A stretch of 64,000 bases of DNA from Marivirga tractuosa DSM 4126. Lineage in GTDB: Bacteria; Bacteroidota; Bacteroidia; Cytophagales; Cyclobacteriaceae. Where the stretch lies: contig NC_014759.1 of assembly GCF_000183425.1 (NCBI RefSeq), positions 2,449,001 through 2,513,000 on the forward strand, in the 5' to 3' direction. Shown here piece by piece: positions 11,582 to 47,520 of the stretch. The first letter of the stretch is position 1. Each line of letters opens with the position of its first letter. The translations under genes were made by a program, and so were the position numbers. The notes below the pieces were generated by a model, which saw only the letters and a list, made by a program, of their open reading frames with translations, was not told the DNA's origin and did no database searches.

Positions 11582-11650
11582 TAAAGTTAGAATTTTACAC
11601 TCGGAGGTATTTATGATATCTCACTTTCGATGTACGAAATTATGCTATTC
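11582..11650 (-). promoter_or_regulatory. site A: shared operator plus -7 element upstream of the ATP-cone operon
   Basis: On the plus strand ATCT begins at 11618 and TGTAC at 11631, an offset of 13 bp. Reading leftward, a -7 hexamer-like element TAACTTTA (11589-11582) follows after 28 bp. The same arrangement occurs upstream of four other operons in the window (sites B, C, D and F). The TAnnTTTR element is the Bacteroidota -7 consensus; the upstream box is proposed as an activator site. Confidence 0.6.
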
Positions 11651-11683
11651 AAAGTCAGTCTCTGATCACTAGTTGAACACCTA

Positions 11684-11711
11684 AAATCAAGCCTCAAATA
11701 AGTCTTGATTT
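11684..11711 (-). terminator. possible weak terminator after the gene at 11713
   Basis: An 8-bp inverted repeat, AAATCAAG (11684-11691) and CTTGATTT (11704-11711), lies directly after the stop codon of the leftward gene. There is only a short T run, so termination efficiency is doubtful. Confidence 0.3.
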
Positions 11712-11712
11712 A

Positions 11713-12261
11713 TTAGTTCCACGTATAGTATCTAATAAGATCTTCCTGATAAATCCAGAAAAATTTACTTATATCAAAGTAGTTCAAAGGAGCCAGGTTG
11801 TGCTTTGATTTCATTTCTTTAACTACGGCACCATACTCTAAATAATCATCGGGAGAAAAACAACTTTGAGAAAAAGCTTCAGCAATTTTTAAAGAATGAC
11901 TGTTCCATAGTGGAAAGTAAGCAGGGCAATGAACTGCACAATATCTTGAGGCAAATTCTATGTTTTCATAATCGATAGAGTTGTTCCCGTTTTGAGCCAC
12001 GCTAACTGCAATTAATAGCTCACCTTGACCTAACGAACTATCAATTTGCAATTTTTTGATATTATTTTGGAAACCACACCTTATGAAATAATCAGCTTTA
12101 TCATGGTTGGCCACTGCCATCACCTTTTCTTTGATCACATCAATATCCTGATTGCCCGGTCGGAACCTGATGAAATTGATGAGTTTTTTATCAGTAAGAA
12201 AGTAGCCACGAATATCTTTAATATGGTTGATATGTTCCTCTATCATCTTATCCATCTTCAT
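11713..12261 (-). CDS. hypothetical protein, 182 aa
   Basis: A 182-residue, probably soluble protein that I do not recognise. It has no signal peptide or membrane helix, is rich in aromatic residues, and has scattered cysteines (RCGF, SRYCAVHCPAYF, QSCF). Its ATG overlaps the end of the upstream symporter gene by 14 bp; in-frame ATGs at 12255 and 12246 are also possible. It is the last gene of the operon that runs from the UspA gene leftward. Function unknown. Confidence 0.65.
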   Translation of the reverse strand: MKMDKMIEEHINHIKDIRGYFLTDKKLINFIRFRPGNQDIDVIKEKVMAVANHDKADYFIRCGFQNNIKKLQIDSSLGQGELLIAVSVAQNGNNSIDYENIEFASRYCAVHCPAYFPLWNSHSLKIAEAFSQSCFSPDDYLEYGAVVKEMKSKHNLAPLNYFDISKFFWIYQEDLIRYYTWN

Positions 12262-13615
12262 TATCAGCTATTGAGGTTTTATGAGTCATCTTGTTTTTGG
12301 TAATGCTACCATACCATTGATTGAAAACCACACAAGCAGTCAGGTCTCCCGTTACGTTTACTGCCGTTCGGAACATACCCAACAAGCGCTCCACCCCAAT
12401 AATAATGATGATACCTTCGGCAGGAATACCTGCACCACCAAGTACGGAAGCCAGAATAACTACACCTCCACCGGGAATGGCCGGAGTACCTATTGAAGCT
12501 GCAACAATGGTTACTATTACCACAATGATGTTCAACAAGCTCATCTCCAGCCCATACGCCTGGGCGATAAATAAAGTGGTTATGGTTTGATAAAGTGCTG
12601 TACCATCCATGTTGACGGTAGCGCCTATAGGGATAATAAAGTTGCTGATTGCGGGATCAACTTTCAGTTTTTCTTCTGCTGTTTGCAATGAGAGTGGCAT
12701 AACGGCTGCCGAACTGGTCGTAGAAAAAGCCAACAATTGTGCATCCCTGATTTTTCCTAGAAATTTTAGTGGATTCCTTCTGCCTGGCAAACTCACTATT
12801 AACAAATAGATACCTACAAGAATAAGTAATCCGGCTAGTACAACGGCCACATAATAACTCAGTCCGGCAAGAGAACTTAAGCCTACACTGGAAGTAAGTT
12901 GAGCCATAAGCCCAAAAACAGCAACAGGCACTAAAAGCATGGCCCACTTGACTACTGTCATACAAATTTCCTGTATTGCACTCAGCAGCAACCTCACAGG
13001 TCTTAACAAGTCTGAGGGTAGTGACAGCACTGCCACCCCAATGATAATGGTGAAAATAACAATACTCAACATTTCTCCGCTAACCATGGAAGCCAGGGGA
13101 TTTTCGGGGAGCAGATCGGTGATGATAGTTGGCACATCGTTTATCCCAAATGACAATTCTGCACCTTGAGTTCCTTTTGCCAAGGCCTCTTCATGTTCAG
13201 CTGCTGCCTGCTGGTGCAAATAGCGTCCCGGTTTGAAAAGTGTGGCCAGGACAGTTCCAATGCTAACAGAAATAATGGTTGTTGCCACAAAATATAAGAG
13301 TACTCCTCCTCCAAGCTTTTTGAGGTTGTCTTTGTCATTGCTGGCAATGCCTGTAATGATAGATGCCACAATCAATGGAATCATGATCATCTGCACCAGC
13401 TTAAGAAATAACATGCCGGGCAGGGCTAGCCAGTTGCCTAAAACATCTGCAGTAGCTTTGCTTACCCATCCATTTTGTGGGCTTAAAATAAGACCAAAAC
13501 CCACTCCTAAGAAAAGTGCAATGAGTACCTTTAACCAGAGCTTACCTGCTACCAGTTTTTGAAGATAGGTATTAAGTGATTTGAGAGATTTTATTTCTGT
13601 ATCAAACAAGCTCAT
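12248..13615 (-). CDS. dicarboxylate/amino acid:cation symporter (DAACS, GltP-like)
   Basis: A 455-residue transporter. The hallmark re-entrant hairpin and unwound helix segments are visible: FSTTSSAAVMPLSLQ (serine-rich HP1), IPIGATVNMDGTALYQ (NMDGT motif) and the HP2 segment GTPAIPGGGVVILASVL, followed by a helix 8 with GVERLLGMFRTAVNVTGD. These fix the glutamate/aspartate/C4-dicarboxylate symporter fold, coupled to Na+ or H+. Inner membrane. The stop of the GAPDH gene and this ATG overlap by one base (TAATG), so the two are coupled. Confidence 0.92.
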   Translation of the reverse strand: MSLFDTEIKSLKSLNTYLQKLVAGKLWLKVLIALFLGVGFGLILSPQNGWVSKATADVLGNWLALPGMLFLKLVQMIMIPLIVASIITGIASNDKDNLKKLGGGVLLYFVATTIISVSIGTVLATLFKPGRYLHQQAAAEHEEALAKGTQGAELSFGINDVPTIITDLLPENPLASMVSGEMLSIVIFTIIIGVAVLSLPSDLLRPVRLLLSAIQEICMTVVKWAMLLVPVAVFGLMAQLTSSVGLSSLAGLSYYVAVVLAGLLILVGIYLLIVSLPGRRNPLKFLGKIRDAQLLAFSTTSSAAVMPLSLQTAEEKLKVDPAISNFIIPIGATVNMDGTALYQTITTLFIAQAYGLEMSLLNIIVVIVTIVAASIGTPAIPGGGVVILASVLGGAGIPAEGIIIIIGVERLLGMFRTAVNVTGDLTACVVFNQWYGSITKNKMTHKTSIADNEDG

Positions 13616-14634
13616 TATATAATCCCTAAACTTTCATTCGTCTTTTTAATAGAGCTTACTGCGCTTTTCTCTATTCCCGTCAATGCCCTTATAGCATCAA
13701 TTGTTTCCGGTATAACAATAGCCTGGTTATCGACCACATACGCGTAATAGAGTTCATCTCCCTCGACTTTAAGCATATCTTGCCAAAGGGCTACTTCATA
13801 CATATCGCCCCAGGGTCGTCCCATATCCAGGTACTTTTCTTTGATCGTATTATTGGAAACCAGACCATCGCTGTAATTGATCAAGGTGATTCGCGTAGAT
13901 GTCTGAAATGCTTCTATCACCTCTTTTTTATCAGCTTTCCAGGTAAGGCGGACATTCCAATAATGCAGGTGGCTAAGGGTTTGAGGTACTTTCACAGCCA
14001 TGGTTACTATATCCAGTTCAGAGTCCACGCTCTGAGCGTCCGGCCCTTGGTGGCTGGGAATATCTTTCTCCGGAACGAGCGTATTCATGATGCCACCTAA
14101 ATGGCTTTCCCAGGGATCTGTAGCCCTGCGTAGCAGAGTACCACGAGCACTCTGCAGCAGCCCTGCTTTTTTAAGAGCGGTAAGTGTACGCAAAATGGAG
14201 GTAGTGTTGCAAGAGACTACTCGGGTACTGTCCCGGTTCAGGGCAGATGCATAGTTGTTTTCTGCGCTAAAAGAATGGCCGGTGGTTTCATGTTTTTCTC
14301 CACCTTGCAGGATAAATTTTATTCCCCGCTCTTTATAAATTTCTACATTTTGTGCAGCTATCTTCTTTGGTGTACAATCTACCACCAGGTGAGCAACCCC
14401 TAATAGGTCTGCCATATTACCAGCCAGGGAAATACCGGCCTTTTGCATACTATCTTGGGCATCTTCAGTAGCTGCATATACAGAGTACCCTTTCTTTACT
14501 GCAGTTTGTATCCGCCAGTCGCTGATCACATCACATACCCCGGCTAATTCCATATCGTCTTGTCGCGCGATTGCATCGGCTACTCTTTTGCCAATTACGC
14601 CATATCCTATAAGTGCTATTTTCTTTTTCATCAT
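13615..14634 (-). CDS. type II (archaeal-type) glyceraldehyde-3-phosphate dehydrogenase
   Basis: A 339-residue enzyme of the archaeal GAPDH family, not the common bacterial GapA. It starts with the Rossmann motif GYGVIGKRV (10-18); the active-site segment is SCNTTS with the catalytic cysteine at 142, and the RRATDPWESHLGGIMNTL stretch matches the type II phosphate-binding region. It interconverts glyceraldehyde-3-phosphate and 1,3-bisphosphoglycerate with NAD(P)+. Type II enzymes are uncommon in bacteria. Coupled to the symporter downstream and separated by 1 bp from the K+ channel gene. With the archaeal-type aldolase at base 1 it gives two archaeal-style triose steps in one island. Confidence 0.9.
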   Translation of the reverse strand: MMKKKIALIGYGVIGKRVADAIARQDDMELAGVCDVISDWRIQTAVKKGYSVYAATEDAQDSMQKAGISLAGNMADLLGVAHLVVDCTPKKIAAQNVEIYKERGIKFILQGGEKHETTGHSFSAENNYASALNRDSTRVVSCNTTSILRTLTALKKAGLLQSARGTLLRRATDPWESHLGGIMNTLVPEKDIPSHQGPDAQSVDSELDIVTMAVKVPQTLSHLHYWNVRLTWKADKKEVIEAFQTSTRITLINYSDGLVSNNTIKEKYLDMGRPWGDMYEVALWQDMLKVEGDELYYAYVVDNQAIVIPETIDAIRALTGIEKSAVSSIKKTNESLGII

Positions 14635-14635
14635 G

Positions 14636-15196
14636 TTATTGATTTCTAATTGTAGTATGAATGTTATTTATGTTGGACAGTCCGAATACGATCAGCACAA
14701 AGCTTTGACCGATCTCCATCATCACTAAAATTTTGGCAGGGGTAGTTATTGGCACAACATCTCCATAACCGATGGCAGCAAATGTTACCACACTGAAATA
14801 AAATGTCTCGAATAAATACTCGAAGTAATTGAAGCTTTCAAATAGTTTAAACCCCAGAAAAGAAGATCGATTGGCAGCGACCAAACAAGTGAAATCTGCC
14901 GCATAGGAGAAAATAATGAGCATGACGAGCAGTCCGAAAATCCAGAGAAGTTGCCCAAAAGAATGACAATGTTTAATGGACTTATTGACCTGCCTGAAGG
15001 TAAAAAAGGTAAAGTACCCAGTCTTGATAAAGGCCAGAAAAATAACAAGATAAGGCACCCAGCTTAGGGCATGATCTACAAACTGCATAAGATAGACATA
15101 CACAAGTGCTACAGTTGCGACCAAAACGAGTGCGGAGCGCATCTGTTTAATAAGTTGTTTTAAAAAATTACTTCTGGTTATTTTATAAGTCATCAT
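14636..15196 (-). CDS. potassium channel family protein with one pore domain
   Basis: A 186-residue membrane protein with helices at about 21-38, 46-66 and 83-105, a pore loop and a last helix at 155-173. The selectivity filter is visible as TFAAIGYGD (138-146). No RCK/TrkA-N or cyclic-nucleotide domain is attached. It should conduct K+ across the inner membrane as a tetramer. Placed between NhaA (6 bp upstream) and GAPDH, suggesting a role in membrane potential and pH homeostasis. The first of two ATGs was kept as start. Confidence 0.83.
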   Translation of the reverse strand: MMTYKITRSNFLKQLIKQMRSALVLVATVALVYVYLMQFVDHALSWVPYLVIFLAFIKTGYFTFFTFRQVNKSIKHCHSFGQLLWIFGLLVMLIIFSYAADFTCLVAANRSSFLGFKLFESFNYFEYLFETFYFSVVTFAAIGYGDVVPITTPAKILVMMEIGQSFVLIVFGLSNINNIHTTIRNQ

Positions 15197-15202
15197 GTAT
15201 CG

Positions 15203-16531
15203 TCAGTTAATTACCTTTTGTTTTTTGATAATAGCTACTTTCCGGGATTGTCGAAGAATACTTACACCTATCACTCCGGCAAGCACCGAAGCAAATAAAA
15301 TGGTTAGCTTGGCAATGAAGGTATACTCCTCATTCTGGAAGGCCAATTCCGTGATAAACAGTGACATGGTAAAGCCAATGCCTGCTATCATGGATACTCC
15401 GGAAATGTGTCTCCAGGAAACCCCTTGCTGCAACTCTGCCAGCCTAAACTTGACTAAAAGCCAACCGGCTCCTAAAATCCCGGTAAATTTCCCTACCAAA
15501 AGGCCAAACGTAATACCCATGCTTACCGGGTGACTCAAAATTTCAATTATATCCCCATGAATATGAATACCGGTATTGACCAGGGCAAATATTGGTAGTA
15601 TGAAAAACCCTACTATGGGCGCCAGGTGATGCTCTATCTTTTGCAAAGGAGTTTCCGCGTCATCTGATTTTTGTTTGATCTCTTCCAAAATCCCAAGTTG
15701 TTCTTCCGAGATGAAATTGCCCTTGATGGCCTTTGTTTCTAAAAATTTTAGATGAAGCTTTTGAAGGTTTTTCAGGTAATCCTCTTCCTTGATTTTGACC
15801 CTGCCGGGAATCGTAAAAGCAGTGAGAATACCTGCAATCGTAGGATGTACTCCTGAGAAGAAAAATGCGAGCCAAACACCTCCAATCCCGATAAGTGCAT
15901 AAAACCAGGCTTTACGAACTCCAATATAATTACCGCCAACCAATAGCAGTATGAACAGTACACCATGAAGTAAATCCACATAAGAAATACCGGAAGTATA
16001 GAAAATAGCGATGATGAGTACGGCACCAAGGTCATCAACTATGGCTAGTGCTACCAAAAAAACTTTGAGCCCTGCCGGTACTCGATCTCCCAATAATGAA
16101 AGCACTCCAATGGCAAAAGCAATGTCTGTAGCCATGGGGATACCCCAGCCGTGCTCTGTAGGGGTATTTAAATTGAAAATGAGGTAAATGAGTGCCGGAA
16201 CAACCATGCCGCCAATAGCTGCTCCGATAGGCAAAATAGCTTTTCTGAAAGAAGACAGTTTTCCTCCTATAATTTCCCTTTTCAACTCCAGGCCTACCTG
16301 TAGGAAGAAGATCGCCATTAAGCCATCATTCACCCAAAGTAGTAAAGTCTCGGAAAGGAAGAATGAACCAACACCTATTGATATTTCGGTGTGAATAAAA
16401 TCCTGATATGATTCTTGAAAGGGAGAATTGGCCCAGATCATGGCTGCCAGTACCGCTAGAAAAATCGCAATACCGGAAGCTGACTGGTTGTTTACCAGAT
16501 TATTTAAGGAGTTGTTTAGGCGGGTAATCAT
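15203..16531 (-). CDS. nhaA: Na+/H+ antiporter NhaA
   Basis: A 442-residue NhaA. The conserved aspartates are present: ATDIAFAIG with D136 and the adjacent pair in AIVDDLGAV at about 166-167, equivalent to the ion-binding pair of the E. coli protein. It is longer than E. coli NhaA (388) owing to a cytoplasmic insert around residues 255-310 rich in charged residues. It exchanges internal Na+ for external H+ in the inner membrane. Preceded by a 120-bp spacer with no clear gene, apart from a possible 14-codon peptide whose stop overlaps the nhaA start. Confidence 0.93.
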   Translation of the reverse strand: MITRLNNSLNNLVNNQSASGIAIFLAVLAAMIWANSPFQESYQDFIHTEISIGVGSFFLSETLLLWVNDGLMAIFFLQVGLELKREIIGGKLSSFRKAILPIGAAIGGMVVPALIYLIFNLNTPTEHGWGIPMATDIAFAIGVLSLLGDRVPAGLKVFLVALAIVDDLGAVLIIAIFYTSGISYVDLLHGVLFILLLVGGNYIGVRKAWFYALIGIGGVWLAFFFSGVHPTIAGILTAFTIPGRVKIKEEDYLKNLQKLHLKFLETKAIKGNFISEEQLGILEEIKQKSDDAETPLQKIEHHLAPIVGFFILPIFALVNTGIHIHGDIIEILSHPVSMGITFGLLVGKFTGILGAGWLLVKFRLAELQQGVSWRHISGVSMIAGIGFTMSLFITELAFQNEEYTFIAKLTILFASVLAGVIGVSILRQSRKVAIIKKQKVIN

Positions 16532-19968: not shown

Positions 19969-20457
19969 TTAGTGATGGCCAGCATGTTTTTCTGCCCCAA
20001 TCTTTTCTTTGTTCTTCATCATTGTTTCCTTATCCATCATGCCTTCTTTGTGCATCATCTCCATCATCTGCCCCATCATATTGGGTTTATCTTTCATCAT
20101 GTCCATCATATGGGCACACATGGACGAATCCGAGTCAGCCATGTTCATCATGTTGCTCATCATATTATGCATCATATCAGGCTTATCTTTCATCATGGCC
20201 ATCATTTGATCATTGTCTGACATCATCATACCCATCATCTGCTCATTGCCTTTCATCATCATTTGGGTATGATCATCCTCCATCATTTTGGTCATCAATT
20301 GTTCAGCGTATTCATGATCGGAAATGATGGTATTAAAAATTTCATTTCGGGTGTCATCATTTTCTAACATTGTGCTTACATCCTTTTGTTGCTGACAGGC
20401 AGATAAAGCCGCTATCAATAAAGTGAGTGTTACCACTGTTTTGAAAGTATTTTTCAT
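19969..20457 (-). CDS. Met/Asp-rich lipoprotein, probable copper chelator (copy 1)
   Basis: A 162-residue protein with a lipoprotein signal peptide (lipobox LSAC, cysteine near 21). The mature part is dominated by methionine pairs and triplets (QMMGMMM, MMHNMM, MMDMMKDKPNMM) spaced by Asp, His and Lys, ending HAGHH. Such Met-rich segments bind Cu(I) in periplasmic CopA/CopC/CueO-type proteins. The companion at 33536-34126 shares the layout. Likely an envelope copper buffer. It lies 4 bp after the UspA gene. Confidence 0.8.
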   Translation of the reverse strand: MKNTFKTVVTLTLLIAALSACQQQKDVSTMLENDDTRNEIFNTIISDHEYAEQLMTKMMEDDHTQMMMKGNEQMMGMMMSDNDQMMAMMKDKPDMMHNMMSNMMNMADSDSSMCAHMMDMMKDKPNMMGQMMEMMHKEGMMDKETMMKNKEKIGAEKHAGHH

Positions 20458-22003: not shown

Positions 22004-22070
22004 CAAAATTACGAGAAAGTACCGCTATCTATTTTTGAAATCTTGTCTTTGATGTATGATATTTTGCTAT
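22004..22070 (-). promoter_or_regulatory. site B: shared operator plus -7 element upstream of SHOCT-PII
   Basis: ATCT begins at 22040 and TGTAT at 22053 (13-bp offset). Leftward, a perfect -7 element TAATTTTG (22011-22004) follows after 28 bp, and the SHOCT ATG is about 58 bp further. No good -33 TTTG is seen, as expected for an activator-dependent promoter. Same geometry as sites A, C, D and F. Confidence 0.65.
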
Positions 22071-23480: not shown

Positions 23481-23550
23481 CAAAAATAAGTGGATTAATG
23501 CATGATCTTTTTTCGAAATCTTGTCTTTATTGTATGAGATTAAGGTTATC
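23481..23550 (-). promoter_or_regulatory. site C: shared operator plus -7 element upstream of YceI operon
   Basis: ATCTTGTCTTT starts at 23518 and is identical over 11 bp to site B; TGTAT begins at 23531 (offset 13). A -7 element TATTTTTG (23488-23481) follows leftward after 29 bp, and the YceI ATG is at 23421. Confidence 0.65.
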
Positions 23551-23554
23551 ATTT

Positions 23555-24418
23555 TCAACCCATTTTTTCACCAGACCCATCTCTCAACTTGTCAGAAAGT
23601 CTCCTGAATAGTGCCTTGTTTTGAAGGTTACTATTGTCAATGAGTAGTCCTTTCAAACCATCTTTTGTTTCGATCCCATAAATAACAGACTTACCTGCTG
23701 CATCTTCATTTTCATCAAACCGGTAGAACTCTGAAATATTCAATTCCTCAATTTGAAAGCTGGCACACAGATCCTTACATTCCAGGCAATCTTCCTTCCT
23801 GTTGAAATTATAGGTGTAGCCTTTTTCTCTTAAGTCGCCCAGTGCTTCAGATAAGTTCTTGTAGTACCGGTTCTCGTTTTTCATTACTTCTTTATAATCA
23901 GATACAGAAAGACCGGTAACACGCTTAAATTGACTGGATAGGTAATGGACGGAACTGTATCCGAGCTTAACAGCAATCTCACTTAAGTTCAGTTCATCAT
24001 ACTTTATCAGTTCTTTCACCCTGTCCACTCTTTTGTTTATGTAGTAGGTCTCTATCGTAAGCCCCTCAATTTTTGAAAAGAGCTTGCTTAGAAAATTGTA
24101 GTTTTTACCTATTTCGTGTGCCAGAAAATCAGACAACATGATCTCTTTGGTAGATTTTTCCAGCATTTCTATATAATGTTGAATTCCAAGCTTAATCTGT
24201 TCCATCAGGATTTCTTCTTTGTCTTCAAGAAGTTCAAAGCCATAAGTATCTAATCTGGACGCAATTTTATCTTTGGTCAGGGTCTCAGGCACTTGTATTG
24301 TAGCATGGCCAAGCTGAATTGTTGAAATAAATGCTCCGAGTTCCTCTAATTCATTTTTTACAACCAGAATGCATCTCGGACATACCATATTTTTAATGTT
24401 CAGATTTAATGTTTTCAT
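23555..24418 (-). CDS. three-domain regulator: HMA-like N-terminus, AraC HTH, C-terminal domain shared with small 'PRPP synthetase'-like proteins
   Basis: A 287-residue protein. Residues 1-65 resemble a heavy-metal-associated domain: the metal motif is NMVCPRC with cysteines 13 and 16. Residues about 96-178 are the AraC-type double helix-turn-helix (EIAVKLGYSSVHYLSSQFKR). Residues about 187-280 match the small proteins at 4573-4896 and 25985-26287 (LSEALGDLREKGYTYNFN, CLEC, YRFDE, GLKGLLID). A copper- or silver-sensing activator is the likely role, by the CxxC domain and context. Its upstream region has its own 15-bp palindrome. The smaller regulator at 37839-38408 has the first two domains only. 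The third domain's function is unknown. Confidence 0.88.
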   Translation of the reverse strand: MKTLNLNIKNMVCPRCILVVKNELEELGAFISTIQLGHATIQVPETLTKDKIASRLDTYGFELLEDKEEILMEQIKLGIQHYIEMLEKSTKEIMLSDFLAHEIGKNYNFLSKLFSKIEGLTIETYYINKRVDRVKELIKYDELNLSEIAVKLGYSSVHYLSSQFKRVTGLSVSDYKEVMKNENRYYKNLSEALGDLREKGYTYNFNRKEDCLECKDLCASFQIEELNISEFYRFDENEDAAGKSVIYGIETKDGLKGLLIDNSNLQNKALFRRLSDKLRDGSGEKMG

Positions 24419-25913: not shown

Positions 25914-25980
25914 TAAAGCTATGCCCTTTGCCTGGAAACTTCAGTACAAAATCTCAACTTAGATGTATAATATTCTTCAG
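25914..25980 (-). promoter_or_regulatory. site D: shared operator plus -7 element upstream of DUF2231
   Basis: ATCT begins at 25951 and TGTAT at 25964 (offset 13). Leftward, TAGCTTTA (25921-25914) lies 29 bp away as the -7 element, and the gene starts at 25889. Confidence 0.6.
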
Positions 25981-25984: not shown

Positions 25985-26287
25985 CTAGCGATTAACAACC
26001 AATTTATTGATCATTGCTTCACTCAACGCTTCGGAATAAACACCATAGGCATCTACTAATACGCCTTTAAGTCCATCGGTAGATTTAATGGCGTAAAGAA
26101 TGGAGTTATCATCCGGGTTGCTCATGCCTTCAAACCGATATACTTCTTTTACTTCAAACTGCTCAGGATGTAGCTCGAGCTTATCGGCCGGGCATTCAAT
26201 ACAATGCGGTTTGAGATTAAAATCGTTGGAATATCCTCTTTCTTTCAGGTCTTTTAATGCTTCAGATAGTGTTTCGTAGGTTTTCAT
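25985..26287 (-). CDS. small conserved protein, often mislabelled 'PRPP synthetase' (copy 2)
   Basis: A 100-residue protein; start taken at MKTYETLSEAL, which matches the start region of copy 1 (a start at 26329 adds a Lys-rich tail). Conserved pattern: FNLKPHCIECPADKLELHPEQF, YRFEGMSNPDD and GLKGVLVDAYGVYSEALSEAM, nearly the same as the product of 4573-4896. The CxEC pair and several acidic residues could bind metal. It follows a permease gene by 46 bp, just as copy 1 follows an amino acid permease. Function unknown. Confidence 0.8.
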   Translation of the reverse strand: MKTYETLSEALKDLKERGYSNDFNLKPHCIECPADKLELHPEQFEVKEVYRFEGMSNPDDNSILYAIKSTDGLKGVLVDAYGVYSEALSEAMINKLVVNR

Positions 26288-26333
26288 TTTTTTCTTTTTG
26301 AAATTCATCCCAGTTACCATGCCATTCAACGGA

Positions 26334-33535: not shown

Positions 33536-34126
33536 TTAATGATGATCTTGAGCACTATCTTTCATTTTATCCATCATTTCATTCCCCTTCATCATTGAAC
33601 TTTTGTCCATCATGCCTTTGTCATGCATTTTTTGCATCATCTTCTTCATCATTTCGGGATTATCCATCATTTTCTCCATCATTTGGTCGTGGTGTTTTTC
33701 CATCAACTGTTGCATCATCATGTCTTTCATGGATTTATCTCCCATCATTTTCTCCATCATTTGTTTTCTACCCTCTTTGTCACCCATCATGTTTTCCATC
33801 ATCATCTGCTTTTTTTCTTTATTGGCCATCATCTGTTGCATCATCATCTGGCCTTCCTCCCTATTTCCCATCATATCTTTCATCATCATCTTTCTGTGCT
33901 CCTGGTTTTGCATCATTTGCTGATGCATGGCCTTCATCGCTTCAGGGTTACTGGAGAGTTGTTGCATGAATTTGTTCATCATCTCACTATCATTCATAAT
34001 AGTAGTGAATACCTCTTGCTGCTTATTCTCTTTTTTCATCATTTTTTCCACGTTTTGCGCATGCATAATGGTACTTAGTGAAAAGAAGAATAGAGTAGTA
34101 GCAGTTGTTAAGATTTTAGTATACAT
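33536..34126 (-). CDS. Met-rich secreted protein, probable copper chelator (copy 2)
   Basis: A 196-residue protein with a signal peptide ending near MHAQ. The mature chain is almost entirely Met clusters with Lys, Asp, Glu and His (RKMMMKDMMGNREEGQMMM, MMENMMGDKEGRKQMMEKMM), in rough 11-17 residue repeats containing MMGDK or MMGNR, ending DHH. Predicted helical, with Met faces suited to Cu(I). Shares its C-terminal HxxGMMDK-type ending with 19969-20457. Overlapping antisense frames are an artefact of ATG/CAT repeats. Confidence 0.82.
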   Translation of the reverse strand: MYTKILTTATTLFFFSLSTIMHAQNVEKMMKKENKQQEVFTTIMNDSEMMNKFMQQLSSNPEAMKAMHQQMMQNQEHRKMMMKDMMGNREEGQMMMQQMMANKEKKQMMMENMMGDKEGRKQMMEKMMGDKSMKDMMMQQLMEKHHDQMMEKMMDNPEMMKKMMQKMHDKGMMDKSSMMKGNEMMDKMKDSAQDHH

Positions 34127-35383: not shown

Positions 35384-37684
35384 TTAAAAACGGATGGACA
35401 AGCCTCCACCTGCACCAAAGCGGTTATCGTAGCTGCCCATTAGTGAGAAATTTCTAGACAGAAAATATTCTACTCCTGCAGACCAAGTGGTTTCTCCTTT
35501 ATAGTCAATTGGTTCGTTAGTTCCTTCATCCGTCAAAGTATTTACCCAGCCGAAATCGGCCTGATACTCGTAGTTTCCAAAAATGGCGGTTCGCGGGAAG
35601 ATCATGATCTCCCGACTTATCCTGATTTCAGGCCGTAATTTATTATCTACCCTTACATCAAGATTGAACATATAGGGAGTGAAAAATCGAATACCTGCTA
35701 TAGCGGTTGCTGAAATTTCATCCAGGCTGTTCTCCGTTTCATTCTCCAGGTTAACTCCGGCAAATACTCGAAAGTAGTCGTATAAATACCGCTCATATGT
35801 AAATTCGGCTTCCATATTCTCATTGTAACCCACTTCGGTATTCAGGTTGAATTGATTTCTTATATTGGAGGATACAAGGTTCAGTTCAGTCATGTGCGAA
35901 GCGACATCAACCATCCCCCAGTTATAAAAGCGGTTGCCTTCTTTAAATAAGTTTTTGGCTGGATATTTTGCCATACGTGGATCACGTTCTGTATCATAGC
36001 TCACTGCTCTGGCCATACCACCAATCATGTGATAAAGCACATGACAATGCAAAAACCAATCACTATCTTCAATAGCGTCAAATTCTATTACCGTCTTTTG
36101 CATTGGCGGCACATTTACCGTGTGTTTTAAGGGAGAATATTCACCATGCTTGTTGATGACCCTAAAAAAATGACCATGAAAGTGCATAGGGTGGTGCATC
36201 ATCGTTAAGTTATTGAAAGTGATTCGCACTTTTTCCCCTTTGGAAATCTTTATCATGTCAGCCTCGGATAGCGGGACACCGTTCATGCTCCAGATATACC
36301 GCCACATGTTACCTGTCAGGTTGAGCAAAACGTCCCTTACGGGTTTATCCTCATCTATAACGGTACTGGAAGGGGCTTTTAAGTAATCATAATTATACTC
36401 GGAGAACATGTCCATTCCCCGTATTTGATTTTTTGATGAAGCTTTCTTCATGTTCTTGTCATTTTCGAGTTCCATTTGAGAATGATCCATCTCTTCCATT
36501 CGAGAATCTACTTTATCACTCTTCATATCTTGGTTCATCTCCATATTCATTTCATCATCCATCTGCATTCCCCAATTTTTCATTAATTCATGAGGCTCCT
36601 CTTCAGCAGGATTAAATTTCATAGCGGGAGCGCCCATACGCATGTCCATCTGTGCCATTTGTTTCATCATTCCAATTTTGTCTGGTCTTTCAACCTCAGG
36701 TGCCACAATGACCTCACCCTTTCCTAAGAAAGCTGAAGTATATCCCGATCCATCTTGGGCAGTAGCTCTAAATTCAATTTTACCTTTTTCTGGAATGGTG
36801 ACTATAAAATCATATGTTTCAGCAATCCCGATAAATGTTTTATTATGTTTAACCGGTACCACATTCAATCCATCTGCAGCTACCAAAAGCGGGGCTTTAC
36901 CTCCAAAAGTCATCCAGTATTGGGAAGAAGCCGAACCATTGATGATGCGCAATCTTACCTTCTCACCCGGTTCAAATTGAGGATACTCTTGTGCTTGTTC
37001 TCCATTGGTCAGGAATGCTGGATAATAAATATCTGCTATATCAGCACTTTCCATTCGTTGTCTCCAAAAATTTAACTGCGCACCAAAGGCTCCCCGTGCT
37101 ATGACCCGATTGAGTGGTGTTGCAGTTCCTTTTTTAATGTTGTACCACTCATTTCCACGCTTGAGGTTTCTCAGGACATTCATTGGCTTTTGATTGGTCC
37201 AGTCAGAAAGCACCATGACAAGTTCTTTATCATATTCTAAAGTTTCACCTTCTTTAGGGTCAATGACAATGGAACCGTACACTCCGCTTTGTTCTTGCAG
37301 CATGGTGTGTGAGTGATACCAGTAAGTACCAGACTGTATCAAGGGAAACTCATACTTTTGTGTTTCTCCAGGGTGTATAGGCGGTGTCGTTAAATAAGGA
37401 ACTCCGTCATAAAAATTAGGGAGCAATAAACCATGCCAGTGAACAGAGGTTTCTTCCTCCATTTCATTTTTCACGTATATTATGGCATAGTCCCCCTCCT
37501 TAAACCTCATGGTAGGTCCTGGAATGTCTCCATTCACAGTCATGCCCACAACTTCTTTACCAGCTTTATTAACTGTTTCCTGTCTTATGGTAAGGTTGTA
37601 GACAGTGGTGTCTATTTGCGCTGACGCAGTAAAACCAGTTAGAATAAATAAAATAATTATAGTTAAGCTATTTTTTATTTGCAT
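35384..37684 (-). CDS. multicopper oxidase fused to a CopB-like outer-membrane beta-barrel
   Basis: A 766-residue protein with a Sec signal peptide. Residues about 25-590 are a CopA/PcoA-type oxidase with all copper motifs: HWHGLLLPNF, YWYHSHTMLQ, HHPMHFHGHFF and HCHVLYHMIGG. A Met/Asp-rich insertion (about 345-425) resembles the copper-binding repeats of PcoA. Residues about 600-766 are beta-strand-rich with alternating aromatic residues (NWGMVDVASH, FAGVNLENETENS, FGNYEYQADFGW) and end in IRF, as in the CopB/PcoB outer-membrane protein that is normally a separate gene. Oxidation of Cu(I) and outer-membrane sequestration would thus be joined. Confidence 0.85.
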   Translation of the reverse strand: MQIKNSLTIIILFILTGFTASAQIDTTVYNLTIRQETVNKAGKEVVGMTVNGDIPGPTMRFKEGDYAIIYVKNEMEEETSVHWHGLLLPNFYDGVPYLTTPPIHPGETQKYEFPLIQSGTYWYHSHTMLQEQSGVYGSIVIDPKEGETLEYDKELVMVLSDWTNQKPMNVLRNLKRGNEWYNIKKGTATPLNRVIARGAFGAQLNFWRQRMESADIADIYYPAFLTNGEQAQEYPQFEPGEKVRLRIINGSASSQYWMTFGGKAPLLVAADGLNVVPVKHNKTFIGIAETYDFIVTIPEKGKIEFRATAQDGSGYTSAFLGKGEVIVAPEVERPDKIGMMKQMAQMDMRMGAPAMKFNPAEEEPHELMKNWGMQMDDEMNMEMNQDMKSDKVDSRMEEMDHSQMELENDKNMKKASSKNQIRGMDMFSEYNYDYLKAPSSTVIDEDKPVRDVLLNLTGNMWRYIWSMNGVPLSEADMIKISKGEKVRITFNNLTMMHHPMHFHGHFFRVINKHGEYSPLKHTVNVPPMQKTVIEFDAIEDSDWFLHCHVLYHMIGGMARAVSYDTERDPRMAKYPAKNLFKEGNRFYNWGMVDVASHMTELNLVSSNIRNQFNLNTEVGYNENMEAEFTYERYLYDYFRVFAGVNLENETENSLDEISATAIAGIRFFTPYMFNLDVRVDNKLRPEIRISREIMIFPRTAIFGNYEYQADFGWVNTLTDEGTNEPIDYKGETTWSAGVEYFLSRNFSLMGSYDNRFGAGGGLSIRF

Positions 37685-37721: not shown

Positions 37722-37810
37722 CAAGATTACGTGAATTTTTAACGTTTGAAAGCTTGATATGGGCAATCTAAAGATAGATTTTATGTATAATATTGTGTTT
37801 AATATGTATA
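37722..37810 (-). promoter_or_regulatory. site E: partial copy of the shared operator upstream of the CopA-CopB fusion gene
   Basis: Two TGTAT boxes (37784 and 37804) lie upstream of the oxidase gene, with a -7-like TAATCTTG at 37729-37722. The ATCT half is not conserved and the spacing to the -7 element is about 13 bp longer than in sites A-D and F, so membership is uncertain. Confidence 0.35.
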
Positions 37811-37838
37811 AACTTCATACCCAATTGCAAAATCTAAA

Positions 37839-40036: not shown

Positions 40037-40037
40037 T

Positions 40038-41828: not shown

Positions 41829-41829
41829 C

Positions 41830-43062
41830 TTAATATGTTTTTGCAGTTAAGTAATTGAGTTTGGCCAGGGCAATTTGGTACTGCGTTGCGGCCGTTGCCT
41901 TCATCTTTTCATATTTTAAGAGCTGCTGTTGCATACGCAGTACCTCTTCAAATTCATTTCCTGAATTACTGTAAGCCGTAAATAATAGATTTAAAGCCTG
42001 ATTGGATTCCTGAATTTGTTGATCGTATAGCTCAATCAATTCTTGCTGTTGTTGAATTTCAAACCAGGCCATTTCGTAGTTTGACGTTAGGGTATTGGCA
42101 AAGTCCTTTTTTTGGAGTGAATAGCTTTCCTGCATGAGCTGTGCTTCTTTAACAGCGGCTTTATATTTACTCCTGAAAATGGGAATGCTGACAGAAACCA
42201 TAGGCATTAGAATGTCCTGACCATTGTCGGGAAGTTCCACTTCAGGTCTGTTTCCCACAATAGCATAATCCAATCCTACACCAAATTTTGGAAGCCCTTG
42301 TTTGTAAGCGACCTCCTCACTTGCCTCACTGGAGGCTATTTTTAAGTCCAGTTCTTCCAGTACAGGGTTGTTCGTAAGCAAAGAGTCCTTTCTGAAATTA
42401 TCAGGCAAGGCTTGAGCAACGAGTGAATCCTCTACGGTTACCAATGCGTCCTCCTCTCTGTTGAGTAGTTTATTAAACCGGGTCAGCAGAGGAGCTTCCT
42501 TATCGTTCAGAATGGAAAGGTTTGTAGTGGCGTCTTTCAACATAATATCCACACGCAAGAAGTCAACCATCGTACCCACTCCATTTTCAAACTTTTTGTT
42601 GGTAATGGTTTTATAAGACTCCAGTATTTCAATATTCTCCCGCTCAATCTCTTTCCATTGATTAAGTTCATAAAGCGGATAATAGGCCGCTGCCACTTGG
42701 TAATACAACCTATTCCGAGCGTCTAAGAAGGCTTGATATTTTGCTTCCGCCATTAAAGCTGCGGCATTTCCCTGTGCCCGTAGCGTCCCAAACCAGGGGA
42801 ACATCTGCGTTAGGGAAAACCTTGCCTTTTGTGGTCCTACCCTCGTTTCCACCGGTGAAATGAAATAACCAAAAGAGAAATTAGGGTCCGGTAAAGTATT
42901 TACCTGCTCCACCTTCTGTATGGCCGCTTCAAATTCCCGATATTTCGCCTGTAATCCCGGATTGTTTTCCGCTGCTATTTTAAAATAGTCATCCAGGACC
43001 TGCGCCTGACTTACGCTGGTTCCGAGAAAAACAAGTATTACAATATTTACAATAATCTTCAT
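41830..43062 (-). CDS. cusC: TolC-family outer-membrane efflux protein (CusC-like)
   Basis: A 410-residue TolC-fold protein with signal peptide (ending SQA) and long coiled-coil helices rich in Gln/Glu (QQQELIELYDQQIQESNQALN). PDPNFSFGYF and GNEFEEVLRMQQQLLKYE are typical segments. No lipobox, so not lipidated. It forms the outer-membrane channel of the RND pump. Start overlaps the cusA stop by 4 bp. Confidence 0.9.
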   Translation of the reverse strand: MKIIVNIVILVFLGTSVSQAQVLDDYFKIAAENNPGLQAKYREFEAAIQKVEQVNTLPDPNFSFGYFISPVETRVGPQKARFSLTQMFPWFGTLRAQGNAAALMAEAKYQAFLDARNRLYYQVAAAYYPLYELNQWKEIERENIEILESYKTITNKKFENGVGTMVDFLRVDIMLKDATTNLSILNDKEAPLLTRFNKLLNREEDALVTVEDSLVAQALPDNFRKDSLLTNNPVLEELDLKIASSEASEEVAYKQGLPKFGVGLDYAIVGNRPEVELPDNGQDILMPMVSVSIPIFRSKYKAAVKEAQLMQESYSLQKKDFANTLTSNYEMAWFEIQQQQELIELYDQQIQESNQALNLLFTAYSNSGNEFEEVLRMQQQLLKYEKMKATAATQYQIALAKLNYLTAKTY

Positions 43063-46000
43063 GGTTGTGTCTTTTTAAATTTTCTTTCTTCCCTCATAGC
43101 GTATAAAACCGGCACGATGAAGAAGGTGACAGCTGCGAAGAACATACCTCCGAATGCTGGAATAGCCATTGGGATCATGATGTCTGCTCCGCGACCCGTT
43201 GAGGTAAGTATAGGCAGCAAGGCAATGATGGTGGTGGCGGAGGTCATCACGGCAGGTTTTATTCTTCGTTGACCAGCTTCCACTGTTGCCGCTCTTATTC
43301 CTTTCAGACTGTCTGTTTTATTACGATTAAAACTTTGATCTAAATAAGTAGCCATTAATACCCCATCATCAGTGGCTATACCAAACAAGGCAATAAACCC
43401 GACCCAAACAGCCACGCTCAAATTGATAGTATGTATTTGGAACAAGTCTCGGAAATTCGTACCGAAAAGGGAGAAGTCCGCAAACCAGGTCTGGCCATAC
43501 AACCATAGCATGATAAAGCCTCCACTAAATGCCATGGCAATACCAGTAAACACCATTAATGAAGTCGCTACAGACTTGAATTGGAAGTAAAGGATGAGGA
43601 AGACGATACCCAATACCAACGGAACAATGATTGAAAGCCTCTTTTCAGCCCTTACCTGATTTTCATAGCTTCCTGAGAACTTGTAGCTGACCCCGGCAGG
43701 AACGACTAAATCACCTGTATCTATTCTTTCCTGAATAGCTGCCTGGGCATCATTCACCACTCCAACTTCCGAGTATCCGTCCCTTTTGTCAAATAGTACA
43801 TAACCCACCAAAAAGGTTTCCTCACTTTTGATCGCCTGTGGTCCCCTCACATACTCAAAGTCCACCACCTGGCTGATCGGTATTTGTGCTCCTGTAGGTG
43901 TAGGCAAAAGGATCTTACCCAATGCTTCAGGATCGTCCCTGAGTTCGCGTGGATAACGTACCCTCACTGGAAAACGCTCCCTTCCTTCCACAGTTGAAGT
44001 AATTTTCATTCCTCCAATGGCTGTTTCAATGGTCTGCTGTACATCTTCCACATTAAGCCCATAGCGTGAAATCTCATCCCTGTTGATGTTAAGATGAAGA
44101 TAGGGCTTACCTACAATTCTGTCGGCAAACACGGCTTCCGCTTTTACCGAAGGAACATTTTTAAGCACTTCCTCCAGTTGCAGCCCAAAGTCTTCTATCG
44201 TTTTCAGATCCGGACCATATACTTTGATACCCATGGGGGCTCGCATACCTGTTTGTAGCATCACCAAGCGGGTTTCAATAGGCTGCAGCTTAGGTGCTGA
44301 AGTTACTCCCGGTATTTTGGTGACCTTAACAATTTCATTCCAGATATCATCTGGAGATTCAATTTGCGGCCGCCAGTTGCGGAAATAATTCCCGTTATCA
44401 TCAGGGATGAGTTCCTCCAAAACAACACCTCGGTTAATGGCTTCTTCATTAGAAAGGCTATCACCGCTATTGAGTATGAAGCGATCTTCCTTATCAACTT
44501 TGAACCTTATTCGGTGCCCTTTTTCACTGAGCATGTACTCCGGTTTATAGTTGATGACATTTTCGTACATGGAAATAGGTGCCGGATCAAGGGCAGATTC
44601 TACCCGTCCTAATTTGCCTACCGTTAATTCTACTTCCGGGATGTTGGTCAGGAGCATATCCAACTGACCAACTACTTTACGGTTGAACTCAATACCGGAA
44701 TGTGGCATGGAGGTGGGCATGAGCAAGAAACTTCCTTCGTCCAGAGAAGGCATAAATTCTTTTCCTACACCCGGGAAAGTATGGGTCAAGCCTGACCAAA
44801 CTGTAGTTGTCCGGACATCCCAGCCGAGATTGTCCAATGCTTTAGGAATAAACCCGAAAATGGTATTAAAACCCAACCAAACATTAGCGCCAAGCAAAAT
44901 CAAGAAAGTAGGTATCAATAAAAAAGTTATTTTATTATCCAGGCACCATTTTAATATAGATTTGTAGTAATATTCTAAAAGCGTGAACGACCCCAGGATA
45001 AATCCTACCAATAAGGTCACAAAAACAAAGTTGAGTAACAGAGACTTTGAGGCTCCTAGCGGTAGCCAGTATTTAGCTAAAAGCCAGGTTACGCCAATTA
45101 GTACAATGATCAGCTCGGCATAATTGAAGAGAAATAATACAGGCCTGGAAAAGCGTTCCTTTTTAGCGTCAAAGATATTCTTTACAATTGCGATTGCACC
45201 AAACAGTACCAGCAGTACACCACCCCATATCTGAGCGGTAAAGAGCCCTATAATTCCAAATAATACTAATGCATAACCACCATATTTCTTAAGAAACCTA
45301 TTATTGATTTTGAACCCAAAGAACCAATGTGCCAAGGTAGGCATGATCAATAGACTCACCAACAGCGCAGCTACCAAAGCGAAGGTCTTTGTGAATGCCA
45401 AAGGCCCAAATAACTTTCCTTCGGCAGCTTGCATGGTAAAGACCGGAATGAAGCTGACAATTGTGGTAGAAACAGCGGTGAGAATAGCGGTACCCACTTC
45501 TGAAGCTCCATTATAAATGGTATCTATCAGTTTTTGACCGGGAGGAGCTTCATCTATATGTTTAATAATGTTTTCAGAAAGTATAACTCCCAAATCCACC
45601 ATCGTACCAATGGCAATGGCAATACCTGAAAGTGCAACTATGTTGGCATCAACACCAAAATAGCGCATGGCTATAAATACCATCAATACCGCAATCGGCA
45701 GGATACTTGAAATGAGAAATGAAGCCCTGAGATTATACACCATCACGATCACTACCAAAATGGTAATGAGCACTTGAAGCGAAATGGCTTCTTCCAGGGT
45801 TCCCAATGTTTCATAAATAAGCTCGGAGCGGTCATAAAACGGAACGATAGTCAACTGGCTTTCCCTTCCATCTGCCAACGTTTTTTTAGGCAGTCCCGGG
45901 GCTATTTCTTTGATCTTATCCTTGACGTTGTTAATGACCTGCAAGGGATTGGCACCATAGCGGGCCACCACTACGCCACCTACCACTTCAGCACCATCTT

Positions 46001-46898
46001 TATCCAGCAGGCCTCTACGGGTGGATGGCCCCAGGGTAACTACACCTATGTCTTTAATACGGATGGGAACATTTTCCTGAACGGCAACTACGGCCTTTTC
46101 AATGTCTTCTACTTTTTTGATGTAACCCAAACCACGCACCAGGTATTCTGCCTTGTTTATTTCAATGGTTTTAGCCCCCACGTCTTTGTTTGATTTCTGT
46201 ACCGCCTGCATTACTCTATGCAATGGGATATCATAGGCTTTTAGAGCATCAGGGTTAACATCAATCTGATATTCCTGTACAAAGCCACCAATAGAAGCCA
46301 CTTCCGAAACGCCTTCTGTTGCGTTTAATCCATATTTGACGTAGAAGTCTTGTACGGTACGGATTTCGTGGAGATCCCATCCTCCGGTAGGGTTTCCATC
46401 CTTATCTCTGCCCTCAATGGTATACCAATACACCTGGCCCAGTGCAGTGGCATCAGGCCCGAGTGCAGGCTGGACCCCTTCCGGTAATAAGCCGGAAGGC
46501 AAGGAACTTAGTTTCTCAAGGATACGGGAACGTGACCAGTAAAACTCTACATCTTCACTGAAAATAATGAAGATACTGGAAAAGCCAAATATAGAAGAAC
46601 TCCGTATAGATTTTACGCCCGGAATACCTAATAAATAGGTAGTCAGCGGATAGGAAATTTGGTCTTCTATGTCTTGTGGTGATCGGCCCTGCCACTGGGT
46701 AAAGACAATCTGTTGGTTTTCTCCTATATCCGGAATAGCATCTACCGGAACGGGATCAGAAGGTAATGCGCCTATCTGCCAACCGAAAGGGGCGGTCACA
46801 ATGCCCCAGGCAATGAAGCCAATTAAGATGAGAACGGTAACTAATTTATTCTCAAGAAAGTATTTAATAATTTTATTTAGCATATTCTTAATATTCAA
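43059..46898 (-). CDS. cusA: CusA-type heavy-metal RND efflux pump
   Basis: A 1279-residue HME-RND pump. Characteristic pieces are DAIPDIGENQQIVFTQWQGR, the helix 4 region GIAIAIGTMVDLGVIL and the helix 10-11 region with the GIATDDGVLMATYLDQ charged relay, plus GLARs of the TSATTIIALLPIL type. It is about 230 residues longer than E. coli CusA; much of the excess is an insertion after helix 6 (about 535-660) with three to four extra helices, plus a periplasmic insert near 790-850. Proton-driven export of Cu(I)/Ag(I), or of other divalent ions. ATG at 46883 is an alternative start. Confidence 0.93.
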   Translation of the reverse strand: MNIKNMLNKIIKYFLENKLVTVLILIGFIAWGIVTAPFGWQIGALPSDPVPVDAIPDIGENQQIVFTQWQGRSPQDIEDQISYPLTTYLLGIPGVKSIRSSSIFGFSSIFIIFSEDVEFYWSRSRILEKLSSLPSGLLPEGVQPALGPDATALGQVYWYTIEGRDKDGNPTGGWDLHEIRTVQDFYVKYGLNATEGVSEVASIGGFVQEYQIDVNPDALKAYDIPLHRVMQAVQKSNKDVGAKTIEINKAEYLVRGLGYIKKVEDIEKAVVAVQENVPIRIKDIGVVTLGPSTRRGLLDKDGAEVVGGVVVARYGANPLQVINNVKDKIKEIAPGLPKKTLADGRESQLTIVPFYDRSELIYETLGTLEEAISLQVLITILVVIVMVYNLRASFLISSILPIAVLMVFIAMRYFGVDANIVALSGIAIAIGTMVDLGVILSENIIKHIDEAPPGQKLIDTIYNGASEVGTAILTAVSTTIVSFIPVFTMQAAEGKLFGPLAFTKTFALVAALLVSLLIMPTLAHWFFGFKINNRFLKKYGGYALVLFGIIGLFTAQIWGGVLLVLFGAIAIVKNIFDAKKERFSRPVLFLFNYAELIIVLIGVTWLLAKYWLPLGASKSLLLNFVFVTLLVGFILGSFTLLEYYYKSILKWCLDNKITFLLIPTFLILLGANVWLGFNTIFGFIPKALDNLGWDVRTTTVWSGLTHTFPGVGKEFMPSLDEGSFLLMPTSMPHSGIEFNRKVVGQLDMLLTNIPEVELTVGKLGRVESALDPAPISMYENVINYKPEYMLSEKGHRIRFKVDKEDRFILNSGDSLSNEEAINRGVVLEELIPDDNGNYFRNWRPQIESPDDIWNEIVKVTKIPGVTSAPKLQPIETRLVMLQTGMRAPMGIKVYGPDLKTIEDFGLQLEEVLKNVPSVKAEAVFADRIVGKPYLHLNINRDEISRYGLNVEDVQQTIETAIGGMKITSTVEGRERFPVRVRYPRELRDDPEALGKILLPTPTGAQIPISQVVDFEYVRGPQAIKSEETFLVGYVLFDKRDGYSEVGVVNDAQAAIQERIDTGDLVVPAGVSYKFSGSYENQVRAEKRLSIIVPLVLGIVFLILYFQFKSVATSLMVFTGIAMAFSGGFIMLWLYGQTWFADFSLFGTNFRDLFQIHTINLSVAVWVGFIALFGIATDDGVLMATYLDQSFNRNKTDSLKGIRAATVEAGQRRIKPAVMTSATTIIALLPILTSTGRGADIMIPMAIPAFGGMFFAAVTFFIVPVLYAMREERKFKKTQP

Positions 46899-46995
46899 AT
46901 TTGAACGGATTTACAAGGCATATTAATCAGGCATATCAATAATGCCTAAGGGCTTAACGAACTAAGCCTTGACTGCAATCAAGTGAATGGAATGC

Positions 46996-47415
46996 TTAAA
47001 TAAGGAACGACTGAACGAGCACAGGTATATCACGTTCAATCAGCGGGGGAGCATAATTTGTAAACTCTGCTTTATGCTTCGTAGAAAGAAATGACCTGCC
47101 TGTAAAAGTAACGACAAAAGTAGAGATGAATTCTAAGTTCAAAGAACTACCAAATACTTGATGCTGAAATTCATCTGCCATCTCAAGAGATTGATACTCA
47201 TTTTCACAGCAAGGTTTTTTCTTGATTTGCTTTTCTTCGGAAGAACCGTTTTCACAAATCTTATCCATATCGGACATTCCACAATTTAATTCGGCATGAC
47301 CGAGAACAAATTGCGATTCCACGGCCGATCCTCCACAATAGTGAGTAGCTACTGCCAGACCGGAATTACCGATAAGCAAGATAAATAGTAGCGTTATGGA
47401 GATTGTTTTTTTCAA
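46996..47415 (-). CDS. HYC_CC_PP family secreted protein
   Basis: A 139-residue protein with signal peptide (ending AVA). The three signature patterns are present: THYCGG (about 25-30), KKPCCENEY and NYAPPLIERDIPVLVQSFLI at the end. Such proteins stand before CusA-type operons in Bacteroidota. The cysteines may bind metal. It heads the cus operon; promoter site F lies upstream. A related protein is at 24653-25120. Confidence 0.85.
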   Translation of the reverse strand: MKKTISITLLFILLIGNSGLAVATHYCGGSAVESQFVLGHAELNCGMSDMDKICENGSSEEKQIKKKPCCENEYQSLEMADEFQHQVFGSSLNLEFISTFVVTFTGRSFLSTKHKAEFTNYAPPLIERDIPVLVQSFLI

Positions 47416-47452
47416 AAAGTTGATTTTCGTCCTGTTAATAGTTTCTGAAACG

Positions 47453-47520
47453 TAAAATTAAGAATAAATGATTCCAGATTCTGTTTAATATCATGTTTTA
47501 AATGTATGAAATTTCGCTCC
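47453..47520 (-). promoter_or_regulatory. site F: shared operator plus -7 element upstream of the cus operon
   Basis: ATCA begins at 47490 and TGTAT at 47503 (offset 13). Leftward, TAATTTTA (47460-47453) is the -7 element at 29 bp, and the HYC_CC_PP gene starts at 47415. Same geometry as sites A-D. Confidence 0.6.

Follow-up and report, generated by a model that had tools for sequence, protein, structure and literature searches.

Tandem half-sites 21 bp apart before five operons of a Marivirga tractuosa metal island and their likely reader, an AraC-type protein with a predicted HMA fold

The AraC protein of Escherichia coli acts at araI1-araI2 on direct half-sites with a spacing of 21 bp, of which the proximal lies at -35 (class II in the AraC/XylS family), and copper regulons of Proteobacteria depend on CueR, a MerR-type protein that recognises a palindrome between -35 and -10, and on the two-component system CusRS. 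The present analysis concerns a 64,000-nt stretch of the genome of Marivirga tractuosa DSM 4126 (hereafter the window; G000:C2:2449001-2513000 in genome coordinates), in which five operons are preceded by a shared twin-box promoter site (sites A, B, C, D and F) and in which AraC1, an AraC-type protein with a predicted HMA fold and a fused C-terminal CxEC domain, is encoded next to one of them. We consider, at a rough probability of 0.75, that these sites are the DNA targets of AraC1 and that this protein, which combines HMA-fold, AraC and small CxEC domains, senses a metal in the cytoplasm, Cu(I) being the most likely one.

Such a system would resemble E. coli AraC in its AraC-type helix-turn-helix (HTH), in half-sites 21 bp apart and in a proximal half-site located at the upstream promoter element, differing from it by an HMA fold in place of the arabinose-binding domain, a Bacteroidota -7 element in place of the sigma-70 -10, the presence of several operons and another half-site sequence. 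With the CueR and CusRS regulons it would share copper-type targets (CopA, a Cus pump and a multicopper oxidase), whereas regulator and site are here an HMA-AraC protein and a tandem direct repeat. Regarding housekeeping promoters of Bacteroides and Flavobacterium, the -7 element is alike, while an apparent activator half-site here occupies the -33 position; for B. fragilis, the accessible parts of PMC7366714 describe a -7 TAnnTTTG together with TTTG near -33, and for F. johnsoniae they report that the -33 element was not found. As far as the available text of PMC11213822 goes, Bizionia argentinensis, also a member of the Bacteroidota, has copper genes for CopA, a resistance-nodulation-division (RND) pump and a multicopper oxidase, MerR and CopY-like proteins that lack the known copper sites, and, as candidates, two of the ArsR-family and CusR-like kinds, with 0 occurrences of AraC in the main text; these regulators differ from the HMA-AraC proteins considered here. 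Among the titles and abstract openings listed, a scope reaching a minority of subscription papers, none names an HMA-AraC copper regulator of Bacteroidota or the present promoter code, and neither is named in the available portions of PMC11213822, PMC10710014 (which names a CusR) and PMC10434189. The parts (AraC family, HMA fold and -7 element) are known; their combination and the regulon appear to be new.

The initial annotation of the window placed five ATCW-N9-TGTAY matches on the plus strand at 11618, 22040, 23518, 25951 and 47490, with 13 bp from the first box to the second, and all were re-found there, each upstream of a minus-strand gene. The 11-bp identity described for B and C corresponds to the common string ATCTTGTCTTT, and the five TAnnTTTR -7 elements are found as quoted. 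When aligned along transcription, the conserved unit spans ~36 bp (majority consensus nAATnTCATACATCnAAGACAAGATTTCAAAAAnAn), and each of the five sites consists of two direct repeats, approximately ATWTCRTAMAT, 21 bp apart:

11629..11640, minus strand: site A, distal half-site ATTTCGTACATC
11608..11619, minus strand: site A, proximal half-site ATATCATAAATA, 21 bp past the distal one
11582..11589, minus strand: site A, -7 element TAACTTTA, before the operon of the ATP-cone/Mrr gene
22030..22062, minus strand: site B, tandem half-sites ATATCATACATC / ATTTCAAAAATA
22004..22011, minus strand: site B, -7 element TAATTTTG, before SHOCT (so named in the initial annotation), PII-domain and Usp-like genes
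23508..23540, minus strand: site C, tandem half-sites ATCTCATACAAT / ATTTCGAAAAAA, 14 bp past the AraC1 stop codon
23481..23488, minus strand: site C, -7 element TATTTTTG
25941..25973, minus strand: site D, tandem half-sites ATATTATACATC / ATTTTGTACTGA
25914..25921, minus strand: site D, -7 element TAGCTTTA, before the DUF2231-like gene
47480..47512, minus strand: site F, tandem half-sites ATTTCATACATT / ATATTAAACAGA
47453..47460, minus strand: site F, -7 element TAATTTTA, before HYC_CC_PP and CusA/CusC/CusB-type genes

At period 21, the 12-mers of the five sites agree at 37 of 60 letters, while none of the other periods between 5 and 33 gives more than 27. A palindrome of the CRP/FNR type was discarded, inverted symmetry reaching at best 0.42 compared with 0.54 for the direct repeat at period 21. 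Between the end of the proximal half-site and the -7 element there are 18-19 bp in all five window sites, which is the class II AraC position. TAnnTTTR is present in five of five, ending in G in two of them, and of 29 distinct sites, many of them orthologous, 25 have it at offset 52-54 and 2 at another place; TTTG at -33, as judged by eye, is absent from most sites. As far as can be read from sequence, tandem half-sites 21 bp apart at a fixed distance from the -7 element are arranged as in class II AraC promoters.

The short consensus ATCW-N9-TGTAY occurs 8 times in the window versus 2.64 expected (1 of 100 shuffles reached 8), three of the eight matches falling inside open reading frames (ORFs) elsewhere, and was rejected as the regulatory unit with 149 genome matches versus 99 for the reversed pattern. 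The apparent regulatory unit is the 21-bp tandem repeat, ATCW-N9-TGTAY being a non-specific part of the signal. A 36-bp profile of the five sites recovers them from the own genome (two contigs with 4,516,490 bases in total, 4,511,574 of them in the larger) at E<=3.4e-5, with the next place at E=0.08, the best 150 of 3689 first-look candidates being scored. Because this profile was trained on the five sites, leave-one-out matrices are the fair test: held-out sites scored 22-39 bits, above all window positions except the other four sites, and every position of one simulated third-order Markov genome of 4.5 Mb stayed below the held-out scores and below the score of the next place. The latter, outside the training, precedes by ~50 bp a third HMA-AraC gene (araC3), itself followed by copA. 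With a 65-column profile, built from 25 sites of several genera including this araC3 box, six own-genome sites have E<=1.3e-6, and no other place falls below 0.08 (best 150 of 5805 candidates scored). The matrix scan of the whole genome, proposed initially with the expectation of promoters of metal genes, thus returns strong sites only in the metal island and at the adjacent araC3-copA operon, while none of the genes that follow A-D is a known metal gene.

Two HMA-AraC proteins encoded in the island had been put forward as the natural binders:

23555..24418, minus strand: AraC1, 287 residues, predicted HMA fold, AraC HTH and C-terminal CxEC domain of ~100 residues
37839..38408, minus strand: AraC2, HMA-AraC protein without the fused domain

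The AraC-type HTH (HTH_18) is recognised in both AraC1 (E=2e-13) and AraC2 (E=3.3e-14), and the predicted structure of AraC1 matches the AraC DNA-binding domain 2k9s (Foldseek, E=1.3e-4). The AlphaFold2 model of AraC1 shows block values of the predicted local distance difference test (pLDDT) of at least 90 over residues 1-80, with CPRC at 13-16, and exhibits a beta-alpha-beta-beta-alpha-beta fold in which CxxC follows the first strand, a prediction being weaker than a solved structure. Foldseek matches for its HMA-fold region are MerP 1osd (E=0.012, the best) and Atx1 5vdf (E=0.020), with probability 1.00.

Among 59 genomes, own included, only three (G000, G001 and G003) have strong sites, and these are the genomes that carry AraC1 at 93-100% identity. 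Over 38 HMA-AraC loci, the window-trained profile gave 26 matches at E<=5, all within 11 of the 12 fusion loci and none in the 26 others, which include one (L160) cut by the contig end whose fusion status is not readable. In 390 genomes of the order, with the best 13 candidates per genome scored, sites at E<=1e-5 appear in six of six genomes with AraC1 at 53-100% (E<=1e-55) and in 1 of 384 others, this exception (G116) having its site right behind an HMA-AraC gene, with the -7 element at offset 55; matches in G237 and G328, without a -7 element at the standard offset, were set aside. In 10 of 12 fusion loci, the AraC1 match is followed by a box at a distance of 15-43 bp. In G393, with AraC1 at ~53% and no training locus traced to it, TAnnTTTR stands at offset 52-55 in four of five candidate sites, the four preceding a small HYC_CC_PP-like gene with cusA, a YceI-like gene, a cytochrome-like gene and a Usp-like gene (cusA and Usp named by tblastn, the other three by eye).

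Boxes recur before homologous operons in Cyclobacterium, Fulvivirga, Roseivirga and Algoriphagus, preceding homologs of the SHOCT/PII/Usp genes, the site-C gene, the DUF2231 gene, the ATP-cone operon and araC3-copA, as well as of the multicopper-oxidase-like gene behind a further site, E. Site B stands out in M. sericea as an isolated 38-bp match (97%) between diverged flanks, with TAAATTTG (TAnnTTTG) at the same -7 distance, site C is kept though its downstream flank diverged, and site F is also kept. An AraC2 ortholog was not found in M. sericea, which keeps all five sites, so AraC2 is not needed for them; AraC1 is the likely binder of A-D and F, as this pattern of occurrence suggests. The earlier proposal that the cus operon and the nucleotide/phosphate operon form one regulon is favoured by comparative evidence, namely site confinement, recurrence before homologs and co-occurrence with AraC1.

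We infer binding, activation and copper as the metal. AraC1 would bind copper through CPRC, two protomers would sit on the tandem half-sites, two helical turns apart on one helix face, and the proximal protomer would substitute for a -33 element by contacting RNA polymerase; activation would then turn on the cus efflux operon at F, genes for stress and periplasmic functions at B, C and D and the nucleotide/phosphate operon at A. AraC1 would probably feed the neighbouring araC3-copA operon too, since the box upstream of araC3 is of the AraC1 type, copA having a box of the AraC3 type; AraC2 and AraC3 are paralogs, and each of their genes has a box directly behind it. The HMA-AraC metalloregulator family would thereby gain a predicted DNA code, target genes and transcription starts, cytoplasmic copper sensing in Bacteroidota would become testable, with a code that could be scanned in other members of the phylum, and an operon with AMP/thymidine phosphorylase-like, phosphoribosyl pyrophosphate (PRPP) synthetase and PPK2 genes would be tied to metal stress.

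Several observations weigh against this assignment. Regarding the protein, Pfam HMA is not found in AraC1 residues 1-76 at E<=1, a weak TusA match (E=0.015) being obtained, and the modelled HMA fold matches have Foldseek E of 0.012 or more, though with probability 1.00. Regarding the searches, at least four of the six AraC1 genomes gave training sites to the profile (R2) used on the 390 genomes, and all genome searches scored the best first-look candidates in the numbers given above. Fusion locus L136 has no site with the window-trained profile, and G026, one of the 384, holds a distant AraC1 homolog of fused length (37%, E=4e-50, below the cut-off) without an R2 match; its R1 match (L095, 8640) lies inside an ORF and was set aside as a site. 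The islands are linked by descent and transfer, so that many sites are not independent; A, D and F are nearly unchanged in M. sericea together with their flanks, and their conservation is uninformative because the flanks are kept too, while site C has lost its -7 element there. The box upstream of araC3 also has no standard -7 element. In addition, the cus promoter of Cyclobacterium lianum (G365) shows no clear site, its one pair being weak, of the family type (9.1) and lacking a standard -7 element, and membership of the cus operon in the regulon is not constant among relatives.

A looser form of the same architecture was detected across the HMA-AraC family. In noncoding DNA of 20 islands, at the loosest threshold, there are 6 half-site pairs at period 21 and 0-3 at others, and the composite of tandem and -7 element over 53 loci has a mean of 7.18, versus 2.76-4.93 for 16 decoy spacings. 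Behind the stops of 51 HMA-AraC genes of other genomes, 8 loci score at least 8 at period 21 and 2 or fewer at other periods; boxes upstream of the genes were rejected as a general rule, 0 of 51 scoring at least 8 at period 21. Two-fold cross-validation on 50 loci gave an excess over shuffles of 6.5 at period 21, 3.56 at 19, perhaps due to half-site self-similarity, and 1.16 or less elsewhere. These counts leave out L147 (too little DNA past the gene) and L160 from the 51 and the 50 loci and L146 (a near copy of L145) from the 50, and all three sets, of 53, 51 and 50, include L024, a distant fusion (37%). With a matrix trained on all 50 loci, 26 score above 8, and TTTG, which was outside the training, stands at offset 55/56 in 19 of these 26. 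The following genes, readable in 24 of the 26, comprise by BLAST 10 CopA-like ATPases, 3 weakly permease-like proteins, 2 HYC_CC_PP, 1 multicopper oxidase and 1 HMA-AraC, the other 7 being without a BLAST match, 4 of them with CxxC near the start as seen by eye. The frozen matrix, applied to 29 new loci, the best-scoring ones of an araC3 search that matched 141 of 296 phylum genomes at E<=1e-22 (L220, of the own genome, left out), yielded 7 above 8 at period 21 and 0-3 at others, with TTTG at offset 56 in all 7. Since no such box lies behind the gene in 24 of the 50 and 22 of the 29 loci, the rule holds for part of the family. A bolder extension, which we put forward tentatively and judge slightly short of evenly balanced, is that HMA-AraC proteins are one of the main families of cytoplasmic copper sensors in Bacteroidota, with a phylum-wide promoter code (21-bp tandem, TTTG at +55/56, usually behind the regulator gene) and paralog-specific half-sites, the CxEC domain of AraC1 being a second input that would couple copper stress to AMP/PRPP/polyphosphate metabolism.

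Copper itself is the part of the assignment most open to an alternative, since silver, mercury, zinc or general thiol stress could be sensed instead, in a mixed stress regulon. CusA belongs to a joint CusA/CzcA family, the island also contains MerA/glutathione-reductase-like and ArsR genes, none of the genes behind A-D is known as a copper gene, and MerP is the best HMA fold match. We nonetheless regard a metal other than copper as unlikely, considering that Cu(I) chaperones are among the same fold matches, that the own-genome CopA behind araC3 passes the copper ATPase model TIGR01511 (above cut-off), and that CopA-like ATPases make up 10 of the 24 readable genes behind family boxes.

More improbable still is that the same regulon is read at A-D and F by AraC3, or by AraC2 and AraC3, AraC1 merely travelling with the island. 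AraC3 does occur beside AraC1 in G000, G003 and G365, and an AraC1-type box lies upstream of araC3 itself (L077:14257-14829). Against this, AraC3 already has a different box, between araC3 and copA (ATTTTGTAAAAC / ATCCTATAGTAC, followed by the -7 element TAATTTTG), and the AraC1-type box stands directly behind AraC1 in the 10 of 12 fusion loci mentioned. Moreover, G008 keeps AraC3 (94%), CopA (99%) and the copA box, yet a close AraC1 and a strong AraC1-type box are absent from it, as is the box upstream of araC3, although the DNA upstream is rearranged there. As judged from G008 alone, AraC1 may have been wired in above araC3. Behind a fourth HMA-AraC gene (G000:C2:122603-123154) lies a variant box, TTTATGTAAATC / TTTATGTAATAC; the paralogs may differ in half-sites.

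The least probable alternative, a repression operator released by metal, would exploit the overlap of the proximal half-site with the -33 position, where a repressor could act too, but the fixed distance to the -7 element across divergent promoters with unconserved intervening sequence fits activator-polymerase contact, and the scarcity of TTTG at -33, seen by eye, also speaks against it.

Two further places had been described as weaker copies of the site:

37782..37814, minus strand: site E, tandem half-sites AGTTTATACATA / ATATTATACATA, 24 bp past the AraC2 stop
49575..49607, minus strand: weak 21-bp pair AATTCATACATA / ATACTATACAGC, upstream of gene 49175-49465

Site E has the top window score after the five (18.9 bits with the full matrix; the next has 11.0) and carries TTATACATA twice, exactly 21 bp apart; near 49552, the 21-bp pair is weak (E=0.22, 301 kb searched). 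Site E has no -7 element at the standard distance, which also weighs against the AraC1 assignment, and the tops of five Markov windows, with the full matrix, range from 7.9 to 19.7 bits, one exceeding site E (19.7). One position of the simulated 4.5-Mb genome equalled the score of site E. Site E lies behind AraC2; it may be AraC2's own or common to both regulators.

GC content is 0.41-0.43 in the window up to ~53000 and 0.354 at its right end, the accessible part of PMC3111994 giving 35.5% for the Marivirga tractuosa genome, and AraC1 is 96% identical in Cyclobacterium lianum versus 93% in the congeneric Marivirga sericea. Owing to this GC contrast and identity pattern, the island probably moved between genera, which suggests that the regulator and its sites moved together. 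The island is also carried, with AraC1 at 87%, by L132 (PBYL01000013.1), binned as Thalassovita, an alphaproteobacterial genus, and probably mis-binned.

Other genes of the island, together with those behind the sites, complete the picture:

43059..46898, minus strand: CusA/CzcA-family RND pump, downstream of site F
25985..26329, minus strand: stand-alone homolog of the AraC1 C-terminal domain (CIEC)
4573..4959, minus strand: second stand-alone CxEC copy (CLEC), downstream of site A

Behind site A are ATP-cone/Mrr, beta-CASP, AMP/thymidine phosphorylase-like, PRPP synthetase and PPK2 genes. This region (510-11556) also holds a second copper-type P-ATPase (1745-3832), and the best NCBIfam model for the beta-CASP protein is type VII Cas14, below the cut-off. 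For the gene behind site C, called YceI initially, a Pfam match was not found, and a YHS gene lies further on; the DUF2231-like gene behind site D scores below the Pfam cut-off. A multicopper-oxidase-like gene (35384-37684) lies downstream of site E. Regarding the cus operon, the G016 site is weak (R2 E=0.0038, -7 element at offset 53) and adjoins another HMA-AraC. CusA and CusC of Cyclobacterium lianum are 100% identical to those of the window, the HYC_CC_PP gene being different (36%; L217 ~14480-14800).

The CxEC domain of ~100 residues thus appears once fused to AraC1 and twice alone in the island. No significant Pfam match was found for either stand-alone protein, and relatives of the stand-alone CxEC protein carry the public-record name phosphoribosylpyrophosphate synthetase. 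The stretch 49841-52766 may be a metal operon of its own, encoding a MerA/glutathione-reductase-like protein, an ArsR regulator and two proteins in which CxxC motifs were recognised by eye. Finally, small proteins very rich in methionine pairs, also noted by eye, are encoded at 19969-20457 and 33536-34126, being possible periplasmic copper buffers.

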